Shown one piece after another: positions 39,692 to 46,304 of a DNA stretch of 64,000 nt. Below the pieces are notes generated by a model. That model was given only the letters and a program-made list of their open reading frames with translations. It made no database searches and was not told the DNA's origin. This DNA is from a virus. How positions within the stretch are numbered: the stretch's first letter is position 1; every line of letters starts with the position of its first letter. The DNA lies in IMG/VR virus record IMGVR_UViG_3300033993_001384, positions 22,334 to 86,333 of that record. One strand, given 5' to 3'. Both the position numbers and the translations under genes were made by a program.

Positions 39692-40087
39692 GGGGGTAAA
39701 ATGGTATTGACTGGCATATCTACTTATTTGGGGCACGTAGTGAGAAGTTTCCTATCACTTAAATCTATGGATGACAAAATTATAAATGGCAACATTTTAA
39801 ACAAAATGGCTCTAGTAGGTCTTGTACGTCAAGACGAGCTTGTGAACGTAGCGTAAGCAAACACACATTCGGGCCGGTGAGCATTACGCCTAGGAACAGA
39901 AGCTTTTACAAAGGTGTGGTACCTATCCGAAAAGGTACAAGTGGAGGATTAGTTCTCAATAAACCGAACCACTCAAAAATAAGGGAATTGTGAAATTTCG
40001 GATTGTTAGCTTAAACAATGTCCTAAACGTGTAGTCCTGAACACTTAGGGTGAGCAACACGAGGCTTCGAAGCCTCTACCTCCACCA
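39692..40087 (+). ncRNA. ssrA: Transfer-messenger RNA (tmRNA)
   Basis: The 5' end GGGGGTA pairs with TACCTCC just before an encoded CCA (one G-U), the 3' side has a T arm GAGGC-TTCGAAG-GCCTC, and the 5' side has ATTGACTGGC like the tmRNA D region. A pseudoknot-like GTAGTGA / TCACT pair precedes the reading frame. The tag frame ends with GAACGTAGCGTAA (stop at 39854-39856), so the peptide ends in Leu-Val-Asn-Val-Ala. GCGTAA/TTACGC starts the next stem. If the frame resumes near 39770 the tag is about 25-29 residues, longer than the usual 8-12. With SmpB it rescues stalled ribosomes. Confidence 0.85.
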
Positions 40088-40521: not shown

Positions 40522-40914
40522 TTACATTTTAACTTCTTGGTGACCCCCACCCCATAAATAACCATCACCATAATTTGTACAAATTTCTTCACCGGGTTGG
40601 ATTGTTTGTAAAGCATAAAATTGGAATGCTCTTTTTGTTGGATGATTTCTCCACATAGCATTATTTGTATCTGAATGATTATATATACACCCATAACCTA
40701 ATGGAATCACATATTCTTCCCAATTTGGTCCTTGAGGATAACAAAATCTATAATCATCAAGTAGTTTTGATTTTTCCCATTTTTTTGTGGGTAATTTTAC
40801 TAAATGACATTCTTCAATTACCTCATCTTTTTGAATAACGTCAATAGCAAAGACCCCCATTCCTTTTCCTGGTGAGGGTTTAATTTCTATTTTAGTAGGT
40901 ATTAATAAATTCAT
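40522..40914 (-). CDS. SET-domain protein (lysine methyltransferase-like)
   Basis: 130 residues with SET landmarks in order: GKGMGVFAIDVIQKDEVIEE (residues 17-36), YNHSDTNNAMW near 77 (the NHS motif that binds SAM), and FYALQTIQPGEEICTNYGDGYLW near 99-121 with the catalytic Tyr. The small size is like bacterial and viral stand-alone SET proteins, some of which methylate histone-like or ribosomal proteins. It is placed just downstream of SmpB on the same strand; a translation-machinery target would fit the context but is speculation. Confidence 0.8.
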   Translation of the reverse strand: MNLLIPTKIEIKPSPGKGMGVFAIDVIQKDEVIEECHLVKLPTKKWEKSKLLDDYRFCYPQGPNWEEYVIPLGYGCIYNHSDTNNAMWRNHPTKRAFQFYALQTIQPGEEICTNYGDGYLWGGGHQEVKM

Positions 40915-40928
40915 AATTTAATTATAAT

Positions 40929-40958
40929 AAAAAAAGGAACTATTTCAAGTCCCTTTTC
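40929..40958 (-). terminator. Terminator overlapping the smpB stop
   Basis: Minus-strand AAGGGACT / AGTTCCTT hairpin followed by T7; the stem includes the last smpB codons. Confidence 0.75.
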
Positions 40959-41377
40959 ATATCTCTTTCAATATCCCGAGATTTAATACTATCTCGTTTA
41001 TCGTGGAGTTTTTTTCCTTTGGCGAGAGCAATCTCCATCTTAACCAATCCGGTGTCATTTATGAAGACACGATAAGGAATGATGGTTGTCCCGTTTATTA
41101 ACTCACGTTCCAACTTATTTAGTTCTTTTTTCTTGGCCAATAGTTTTCTATCTTTAACTGTTTCATGGAATGACCCATAACCATAATCGGAGATGTTCAT
41201 TCCCTTTATAAACAATTCCCCATCATTAAAATAACAATACCCTTCAGATATGGAGACCTTTCCTTGACGGATGGACTTCACCTCTGAACCAACTAATTTG
41301 ATTCCCACAATTAGGGTTTCTAAGAATGAATACTCAAACTTGGCTTTCTTATTGACTATGTTAATTGATTTTTTCAT
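40940..41377 (-). CDS. smpB: SmpB, tmRNA-binding protein
   Basis: 145 residues from the ATG at 41377. Conserved blocks: NKKAKFEYSFLETLIVGIKLVGSEVKSIRQGK (OB-fold start), ELFIKGMNISDYGYGS, DRKLLAKKKELNKLERELI, then KGKKLHDKRDSIKSRD at the C-terminus, the tail that enters the ribosomal mRNA channel. The gene lies 0.9 kb from tmRNA on the other strand. Its -7 box TATCTTTG ends 4 bases before the ATG, with TTTG exactly 19 bases upstream, so the transcript should be leaderless. This start was chosen on that basis. Confidence 0.93.
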   Translation of the reverse strand: MKKSINIVNKKAKFEYSFLETLIVGIKLVGSEVKSIRQGKVSISEGYCYFNDGELFIKGMNISDYGYGSFHETVKDRKLLAKKKELNKLERELINGTTIIPYRVFINDTGLVKMEIALAKGKKLHDKRDSIKSRDIERDMKRDLK

Positions 41378-41381
41378 AGGA

Positions 41382-41412
41382 CAAAGATAATATAAAAATT
41401 GGTATAAACAAA
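41382..41412 (-). promoter_or_regulatory. smpB promoter, giving a leaderless mRNA
   Basis: Minus strand: TTTG (41409-41412, inside the T run of the preceding terminator), 19 bases, TATCTTTG (41382-41389), TCCT, then ATG. Confidence 0.8.
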
Positions 41413-41443
41413 AAAAGGTGTCACATTTCTGTAACACCTTTTT
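41411..41443 (-). terminator. Terminator of the large ncRNA
   Basis: Minus-strand AAGGTGTTACA / TGTGACACCTT hairpin followed by T7; it closes the transcript that starts near 42330. Confidence 0.85.
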
Positions 41444-42330
41444 GGCTAATACGATGAGAATACTCGTGTTATTAAGAATCTTCGGAAGGATTATTGTTTC
41501 CCTTCTTTTCCACCATCTTTTGAATGGTAATCCTCAGTGACAATTGGTTAGACCAATTACTCCTTGAGATATCATCTACTCTCTTATTATTCAACTCTCT
41601 TCAACCTTGCGGGCTGACTCCGGATTCGACTCCGTAGAGGTTTTTCGTAAGAATACATTCTGACTTGCGGTCATCCTGTGCAACGAACGGCTCGTTACTA
41701 TGTAGTCACCTTGTCGATGATACCTGACAGACACTTTTGCTTATGTATCTTTTTAGTTTTACTTAAAATGTCCTATAAGTTAATTGTGTTGTGGATGTGT
41801 CCAAGTAGAGGTCTGTCGTAAGCTTCGTTATCTTTTGAACAACAAAATACTAATCTACTCGGTAGAGTGTCCCCACTCTCATATTTTAAGATTACTTCAA
41901 ACTGACATCTTGGTAGATGTTTCGTAAGGTTAGTAGCGACACCACTCGTTCTCTAACTTACCTTTCGGTTTTAAGTCCCCTTTGATATTGGAATCCGTAA
42001 TTATAAGGTTGGATGACCCTATTTCTCACATAATCCCTATCGGTTATTCTTGTTGGTGTTCCCACCTCAACCTGACGACCCACATCGCCCGGTCACCCAA
42101 CCACTTTCTCTAAAGCGTTGCCCTCAATACTGAAGGTCAGGTGATATCCGACTTGTATACTCGAGCTCCCTTTCAGAAGCCGCAGAACCAATAACACTAA
42201 TGATTCCACTTTATCCCGGTTTCCCGGTTTATTTAAGGATGATATACCACCCATTATCGTTTCTTACATCACCGAAGTGTGTAATGGATAATCTAAAATT
42301 TCTAAGAACGTTTAAGGTTTCCCTCAATTG
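41411..42330 (-). ncRNA. Large structured non-coding RNA (about 920 nt), GOLLD/ROOL-type candidate
   Basis: No usable reading frame, but a perfect host-type promoter upstream and a strong terminator downstream define one transcript. The minus strand contains many stems: TTACA-AC-TTCG-GT-TGTAA inside ATTATC/GATAAT, CCGG-GAAA-CCGG, ACC-GAAA-GGT inside ACTTA/AAGT, AATTGG-TCTA-CCAATT, and a CGGA-GTCGAA-TCCG hairpin with a T-loop-like loop. A GGTG-TATATC / GATATCACC pair joins distant parts. GOLLD and ROOL are very large phage RNAs often beside tRNA genes; size and place fit, but I could not match their consensus by eye. RNase P RNA was considered and not supported. Confidence 0.7.
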
Positions 42331-42335
42331 TTTTA

Positions 42336-42366
42336 CAAAGATAAGTGATTTTTTTCATTTGTCAAG
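42336..42366 (-). promoter_or_regulatory. Promoter of the large ncRNA
   Basis: Minus strand CTTG, 19 bases, TATCTTTG (42336-42343). Transcription should begin near 42330. Confidence 0.8.
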
Positions 42367-42403
42367 CACTTTATAAAACTTTTTTTTAATTTTTTTTTAT
42401 TTG

Positions 42404-42494
42404 TGGTATCGGCGGGGTTCGAACCTGCGGCACAGAGTCTTTCGTTACTCTTGCTCTACCAAGGAAGATAAATCTTCCACTGAGCTACAATACC
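42404..42494 (-). tRNA. tRNA-like element with D-loop hairpin and GNRA-like anticodon arm
   Basis: Acceptor GGTATTG/CGATACC, D stem GCTC/GAGC, T arm GCAGG-TTCGAAC-CCCGC and an A discriminator are all present. The D loop, however, holds an inserted GGAAGA-TTTA-TCTTCC hairpin, and the anticodon arm is AGAGTAACGAAAGACTCT: an 8-base loop without U33 that includes CGAAAG, a GNRA tetraloop. No anticodon can be assigned, so it may not decode. Confidence 0.6.
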
Positions 42495-42506: not shown

Positions 42507-42579
42507 TGTGGGTGTATGCTCTACCATCTGAGCTACGGATAAATCCGGAGGGATTTGAAACCTCGACACGACACCCACA
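42507..42579 (-). tRNA. Circularly permuted tRNA-like element
   Basis: Reading the minus strand 5' to 3': TGTGGGTGT, then a T-arm-like GAGGTTTCAAATCCCTC, then CGGA-TTTA-TCCG, then a canonical D arm GCTCAGATGGTAGAGC, then ACACCCACA, which pairs with the first block over 9 bp. T arm before D arm with an acceptor-like hairpin between is the order of a circularly permuted tRNA opened at the anticodon. The acceptor part is only 4-5 bp with no CCA, so function is uncertain. Confidence 0.55.
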
Positions 42580-42617: not shown

Positions 42618-42649
42618 CAAAGATAAGACATTTATTTTTATCTGTCAAA
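42618..42649 (-). promoter_or_regulatory. Promoter of the two tRNA-like elements
   Basis: Minus strand TTTG, 20 bases, TATCTTTG (42618-42625), preceded by A/T tracts. It would drive both 42507-42579 and 42404-42494. Confidence 0.75.
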
Positions 42650-42670
42650 CTTTTTTTTAATTTTTTTTTG

Positions 42671-42772
42671 TAGTCAGGACAGGATTCGAACCTGTTCCGT
42701 CTTTACCATAAAGAGTCGGCCTTACCGTTACTCAACCTTGGGGAGGTGATACCAACCAATGGTCTCCTGACT
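42671..42772 (-). tRNA. tRNA-like element with inserted 5' hairpins
   Basis: 102 nt. Acceptor AGTCAGG/CCTGACT and T arm ACAGG-TTCGAAT-CCTGT are perfect, and its 3' end is nearly identical to the tRNA-like gene at 51426-51505. Between them are GAGTAA-CGG-TAAGG-CCG-ACTC and CTTTA-TGG-TAAAG hairpins instead of a normal D/anticodon pair; about 24 extra bases follow the acceptor. The GAGTAACG / ACTCT arm resembles that of the element at 42404. No anticodon assigned. Confidence 0.5.
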
Positions 42773-45905: not shown

Positions 45906-46304
45906 TTAAAGTTTCACCTCGAAACGTTTTTTCATTAACCCCAATTTATCTTCCGGAACCCCGTGTTCATTAACACCTCCGTGTCTGTTTTCTACGATAA
46001 GTGAATGAACTCTGTATCCATATTTTTCCGCTAATTCAAAATAAGGTGTCATTTCCCACTCTTGTGTGAATGTGTTTGAAACTACAATTCGTTCATTAAT
46101 ATTTGCCGAGTAATTTAAAAGCATTGCATTACTAACTTGTGTCTGACACCAACTATGAGCATCTCTTAATCCTGTAATGTCAAATTGATACTCACCATCT
46201 TTCATAAAATACATATCGGCTTCGTAATGAACACCACCGATTGATTTTGCCAATGTTGATTTACCACTTCCCGGTAATCCTCTTAATAAAAATAATTCTT
46301 TCAT
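45906..46304 (-). CDS. P-loop kinase, polynucleotide-kinase-like
   Basis: 132 residues. Walker A RGLPGSGKSTLAK (residues 8-20), then EADMYF, LRDAHSWCQTQV and VVSNTFTQEWEM, which is the layout of the small AAA_33/N4BP2-type kinases. It has the kinase half of T4 polynucleotide kinase but no HAD phosphatase domain; a separate phosphatase would have to remove 2',3' ends. It lies directly before the RNA ligase gene, which supports a 5'-end RNA repair role. Confidence 0.75.
   Translation of the reverse strand: MKELFLLRGLPGSGKSTLAKSIGGVHYEADMYFMKDGEYQFDITGLRDAHSWCQTQVSNAMLLNYSANINERIVVSNTFTQEWEMTPYFELAEKYGYRVHSLIVENRHGGVNEHGVPEDKLGLMKKRFEVKL

Follow-up and report, generated by a model that had tools for sequence, protein, structure and literature searches.

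The stretch of DNA analysed here (the window) comprises 64,000 nucleotides and corresponds to positions 22334-86333 of an IMG/VR virus record (IMGVR_UViG_3300033993_001384) with a length of 86,333 bases. An element at positions 42579-42507 on the minus strand was classified as a likely YrlA-type permuted tRNA mimic according to its sequence, its fold, the Rfam family RF02553 and seven covarying relatives. Its parts follow in the order of T arm, closed hairpin at the acceptor position and D arm, and all of them are placed on a 9-bp stem. The minus strand reads 5′ to 3′ as TGTGGGTGT CGTGTC GAGG(TTTCAAATC)CCTC CGGA(TTTA)TCCG TA GCTC(AGATGGTA)GAGC AT ACACCCACA TTTTTTTT. The closing stem is formed by TGTGGGTGT (42579-42571) and ACACCCACA (42515-42507), and it is followed inwards by the T arm GAGG-TTTCAAATC-CCTC (42564-42548), in which T54, T55, C56, R57 and A58 are invariant across relatives; the closed acceptor-like hairpin CGGA-TTTA-TCCG (42547-42536), whose CGG/CCG pairs are invariant and whose loop is variable in relatives; U8-A9 (42535-42534); and the D arm GCTC-AGATGGTA-GAGC (42533-42518), with A14, G15, G18, G19 and A21 at positions invariant in relatives. 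The T arm contains a mismatch, U.C here and A.C in some relatives, at the position of G53-C61 in tRNA. Exactly three hairpins on the closing stem were predicted using RNAfold (-28.4 kcal/mol, z -3.46), and ARAGORN called no tRNA at the element site. The initial annotation had described a T arm ahead of a D arm, CGGA-TTTA-TCCG between them and ends paired over 9 bp; all of these were recovered on the minus strand at the coordinates above, and the circularly permuted order and the tRNA resemblance were upheld by sequence and fold.

The element lies in a tRNA/GOLLD island. A candidate promoter, TTGACA-17-TATCTTTG (TAnnTTTG), is located immediately upstream of the element at 42618-42648 on the minus strand, with 10 of 12 matches, and sites of this kind were no more frequent than in shuffled sequences; in 12 of the 13 distinct relatives listed, the core is preceded by TA[TC]CTTTG at a distance of 50-58 bases. 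TAnnTTTG is the promoter form of Bacteroidota, and the host was therefore inferred to be a member of this phylum. Downstream of the element, a tRNA-like gene with the hairpin GGAAGA-TTTA-TCTTCC in its D loop (42403-42494, minus strand; Rfam tRNA, 37.5 bits), a second promoter detected by promoter scan (TTGACA-16-TATCTT; 42338-42365, minus strand) and then the GOLLD RNA (41412-42325, minus strand; Rfam RF02032, 306.5 bits) were found. The 5′ end of the GOLLD RNA was inferred from its promoter; its conserved 3′ domain spans 41862-41451, and a terminator hairpin was placed at 41443-41412 by terminator scan, both on the minus strand. GOLLD RNA assembles into nanocages, it is frequently encoded near tRNA islands, and the cages have been suggested as tRNA holders (PMC12286853). 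The locus resembles the GOLLD loci near tRNA islands of phages and prophages, with GOLLD (306 bits) and tRNA-like genes directly downstream. No description of a YrlA-like element or permuted tRNA mimic in GOLLD islands was found in the openly licensed literature.

Several neighbouring genes were also characterised. The tRNA-like gene at 42403-42494 has an irregular anticodon arm (loop AACGAAAG) and is kept beside the element in most relatives; the 'Pro(tgg)' anticodon assigned by ARAGORN falls within the insert region, and the gene is probably not a normal decoding tRNA. Another tRNA-like gene occupies 42668-42771 on the minus strand and carries an additional hairpin that separates the acceptor from the D arm; it was not called by ARAGORN and matched the Rfam tRNA model weakly (17.4 bits), and its acceptor and T stems fold. 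Insert-bearing odd tRNAs of this kind flank GOLLD in the huge phages LR756502 and LR745206 (L002, L003). Beside GOLLD, an SmpB gene (40940-41383, minus strand; PF01668, E 2.6e-47) and a tmRNA match (39692-40087, plus strand; 50 bits) apparently represent a phage-encoded trans-translation pair; tmRNA was also present in four relatives, and SmpB matches occurred in 66 phage records, including Lak megaphages. The tRNA-like domain of tmRNA is, like the element, a tRNA mimic carried by phages, here in the same window together with SmpB, whereas the acceptor of tmRNA bears CCA and a canonical D stem is absent. This phage also encodes a SET-domain protein (40522-40914, minus strand; PF00856, E 6.8e-14). 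An Rnl1-type RNA ligase (PF09511; 44869-45894) and a PNK-like AAA_33 protein (45906-46304), both on the minus strand, are likely a tRNA repair pair.

The occurrence of such an arrangement by chance was evaluated by simulation and by conservation. A relaxed detector, with T arm, closed acceptor and D arm as criteria, gave one match in the window and one match in 300 first-order Markov windows, and none of the 300 simulated windows contained acceptor and D stems that were both of 4 bp. A degenerate pattern of the permuted order was run over 2.9 million viral contigs and returned 64 stretches, which were sorted by inspection into chance matches, ordinary tandem tRNAs and two real groups. Group 1, the window's own family, comprised 26 IMG/VR contigs, including three records of 309-322 kb, with 16 distinct contexts and seven distinct elements after flank trimming. 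Pairing was kept in 98.6% of cells across the seven elements (slid partners, 30-64%). Double changes were observed at three outer-stem pairs (U-A to G-U, G-C to A-U and U-A to C-G), which possibly represent few events because they co-occur in one lineage, and at one acceptor pair; the covariation score of the group was reached by none of 500 shuffles. The tertiary positions of the elbow, namely, U8, A14, G15, G18, G19, A21, C48 and T54-A58, were invariant. A chance origin is ruled out by the simulation and the conservation, and the element in the window is a real, conserved and ordered RNA. The initial annotation had named decay of the element in relatives without compensatory changes as evidence against its reading; the relatives carry compensatory changes. 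These data also bear on the idea that the element is a functionless relic left by recombination of two tandem tRNA genes. An order of 3′ half before 5′ half is a natural outcome of tandem tRNAs, and odd tRNAs are abundant in the region, but the pairing level and the double changes are kept in seven distinct sequences and the elbow nucleotides do not vary; the relic is largely ruled out by covariation, and we regard it as having almost no probability.

The closed acceptor argues against the interpretation as a permuted tRNA gene. The initial annotation had favoured such a gene, of the type known from algae and archaea; under this reading, the transcript would be circularised at the ends of the anticodon stem, perhaps by the phage Rnl1-type ligase, before opening at the acceptor releases a decoding tRNA. 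The order of parts agrees with that of permuted tRNA genes in Cyanidioschyzon and archaea, in which the 3′ half precedes the 5′ half, and the ligase and the PNK-like ATPase are encoded approximately 2.4 kb away, with the ligase present in 11 of 14 group 1 records. However, known permuted tRNA genes are characterised by a full 7-bp acceptor and a spacer that can be excised, and the element has neither a full acceptor nor CCA nor an anticodon. The acceptor consists of 4 bp and a 4-base loop here, is too short in all relatives and is closed in each of them (CGG...CCG, loops of 4-8), and the ends of the element form a 9-bp stem that leads into the flanks with no 7-base anticodon loop. The proposal, which had itself carried the caution that the acceptor segment is too short and without CCA, was not sustained: a functional permuted tRNA is ruled out by acceptor, CCA and anticodon, and we consider this origin highly improbable.

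The position of the element in the island is also consistent with a role in cis, as a stable hairpin for spacing, processing or attenuation within one polycistronic transcript of the tRNA and GOLLD; its tRNA shape would then guide RNase P or RNase Z or block decay. The element lies between a promoter and the tRNA-like gene in most relatives, and in the window phage a run of eight T (42506-42499, minus strand), possibly a terminator in this phage, follows 3′ of the stem; it was not called by the terminator scan with a loop limit of 8. The T run is not conserved in relatives, which rules out a reading as terminator only, the conservation of the elbow exceeds the needs of a terminator, and GOLLD in the window has its own promoter and terminator. 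A role in cis is accordingly unlikely, though it deserves some weight.

Comparison with Rfam linked the element to the bacterial Y RNAs. Its top match was YrlA (RF02553; 42591-42494, 40.0 bits, E 1.6e-7 in a search of 421 bases), which does not reach the gathering score of 69. Whole records scored 31-41.5 bits in group 1 and mostly 33-48.6 bits in group 2, all below 69. The score alone is not decisive for the weaker relatives in group 1 (31-34 bits) because ordinary tandem tRNAs reach up to 28.5 bits; the closed acceptor decides. The weak YrlA match in the huge phage LR745206 (28.5 bits) was attributed to ordinary tandem tRNAs. The tRNA-like domain of YrlA was found in the element in its permuted order, with T arm, capped acceptor, U8-A9 and D arm. 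Homology to YrlA, as opposed to convergence, is likely but not proven on scores below the cut-off.

The closed permuted elements of group 2 have a well-paired acceptor, frequently with a GNRA or UUCG loop as its cap, and an anticodon-like arm is present in many of them. A TROVE (Ro60) gene was present in 8 of 11 group 2 phage contigs, with the RNA approximately 0.2-1 kb away where measured. The same pattern applied to bacterial genomes detected 33 closed elements in 32 genomes, 24 of which contained TROVE. These closed permuted elements of bacteria and of group 2 phages are bacterial Y RNAs of the YrlA type. The initial annotation had known of no phage example; several phage contigs with closed permuted elements and a TROVE gene now supply them, and Y RNAs have been published for mycobacteriophages and possibly for a Listeria phage that encodes an Rsr-like protein (PMC12282133). 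TROVE proteins are also present in some jumbo phages (PMC7824862). Tandem pairs of closed permuted tRNA-like modules, each with a capped acceptor, were observed in two viral contigs (L203, L208) and in Chitinophaga pinensis (L185).

The element could be a complete Y RNA that binds Ro60 of the host, or of the phage but unseen, in a RYPER-like complex with PNPase. The YrlA-type domain is present, and YrlA together with TROVE occurs in Bacteroidota (Hymenobacter, Chitinophagaceae, Saprospiraceae, Pontibacter and others), which makes a host Ro60 plausible; the huge phage LR745206, which has a related GOLLD locus, carries a TROVE gene, next to which no permuted element was detected. The flanks argue against a complete Y RNA. 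The basal stem of YrlA binds Ro60 (Rsr), whereas PNPase reportedly binds the tRNA-like domain, which is a substrate of DusA and TruB (PMC8394870). Beyond the 9 bp, no conserved stem or motif was detected in group 1, and the flanks do not form the conserved Ro-binding stem. The ACUAC/ACUUC and UUGUcGC-type flank motifs (defined by eye) accompanied 28 of the 33 bacterial elements, singly or together, and none of the 16 distinct group 1 contexts. None of 23 group 1 records, the three of 309-322 kb included, yielded a TROVE gene; the completeness of the records is not given and Ro60 could be missed, so its absence from group 1 is likely rather than certain. The element is located in a tRNA/GOLLD island and not beside rsr or rtcBA. 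It shares with YrlA the permuted order on a stem and a 40-bit match within the score range of TROVE-linked phage elements, and it differs in having no Ro60-binding flanks, no TROVE gene in the records and a score below the gathering score. By the features tested in these sequences, the element is not a full YrlA, and a complete Y RNA appears improbable. A closed permuted element with the stem GGAATTTA/TAAATTCC was also observed in an unrelated large phage (L243, a 371-kb viral contig, G016), where no TROVE gene was found; it is possibly another Ro60-free tRNA mimic.

The association with GOLLD extended throughout the family, and GOLLD lay downstream of the element in all 23 group 1 loci with at least 500 bases of downstream sequence. 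Other RNAs were observed in these islands. In five relatives (L022, L038, L049, L050 and L066), the stretch from the tRNA to GOLLD contains a second tRNA-like element in permuted order; its acceptor loop is long (TGTGTCGTGTAGAGTCGTTGGTTCGATTCCAACAACC...GGTTTAGCTGCAGTGGTAGAGC), and its YrlA score was 24.6 bits in one record. In two relatives (L053, L245), an RNA candidate of approximately 130 nt with a 13-bp stem (TCTGTGATAAGA/TCTTATCACAGA, z -2.82) occupies the same slot of the operon, 3′ of the tRNA-like gene; in L053, it matched no Rfam family at the gathering score. Of the three additional RNA candidates in relatives, two that are further conserved non-coding blocks of the GOLLD operon, AACCATAATTTGGNGGAGGATGG... 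and ATTCTAATTA... (L010, L017, L023 and L044; L009, L018, L029 and L065), folded no better than shuffles.

We conclude, with a probability of about 0.68, that the element, carried by jumbo phages that probably infect Bacteroidota, is a Ro60-free YrlA-type mimic of the tRNA elbow within their tRNA/GOLLD island. The structural part of this conclusion, namely, a tRNA mimic of the YrlA type, is likely and held with high confidence. In the proposed mechanism, the RNA would be transcribed from its own promoter and remain linear; the T arm, the tetraloop-capped acceptor hairpin, U8-A9 and the D arm would fold so that the D and T loops dock as in tRNA, with the 9-bp stem in place of the anticodon arm. 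Similar to YrlA, it may be modified by TruB and Dus of the host, and it would act as a free effector domain that does not require Ro60. From its shape and its invariant elbow, the RNA would be expected to bind an elbow-reading protein, for which the analogy with YrlA suggests TruB, Dus enzymes and PNPase. A host elbow-binding protein such as PNPase is the most likely candidate by this analogy, and the choice of a specific partner is tentative. A search of 14 group 1 records for RtcB and for RNase PH/PNPase domains was negative, so any PNPase acting as partner would be that of the host. Binding of the partner might allow the element to shield or hand over the structured RNAs of the island (tRNAs and GOLLD). 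YrlA has also been proposed as a competitive inhibitor of anticodon nuclease (PMC7790460), and such inhibition would fit a phage with tRNA repair, given the nearby Rnl1-type ligase and PNK-like ATPase.

The order of parts is known from YrlA; group 1 is distinguished by its likely lack of Ro60 and its link to GOLLD. Permuted tRNA mimics can escape tRNA searches, as illustrated by the silence of ARAGORN at the element. A more speculative suggestion is that jumbo phages have detached the tRNA-mimic module of a Y RNA from Ro60 and that the module, rewired into an RNA island, now works with GOLLD, for example as cage cargo or as an adaptor that recruits a tRNA-binding host protein to the RNA nanocage; if so, the tRNAs with a D-loop hairpin would belong to this machine as well, together with the second permuted element of some relatives. 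The finding touches two open questions, namely, the functions of bacterial Y RNAs and of GOLLD cages. A conserved mimic that lacks Ro60 and always stands beside GOLLD would, if confirmed, indicate that the role of the mimic is separable from that of Ro60, and GOLLD would gain a concrete and testable candidate partner.
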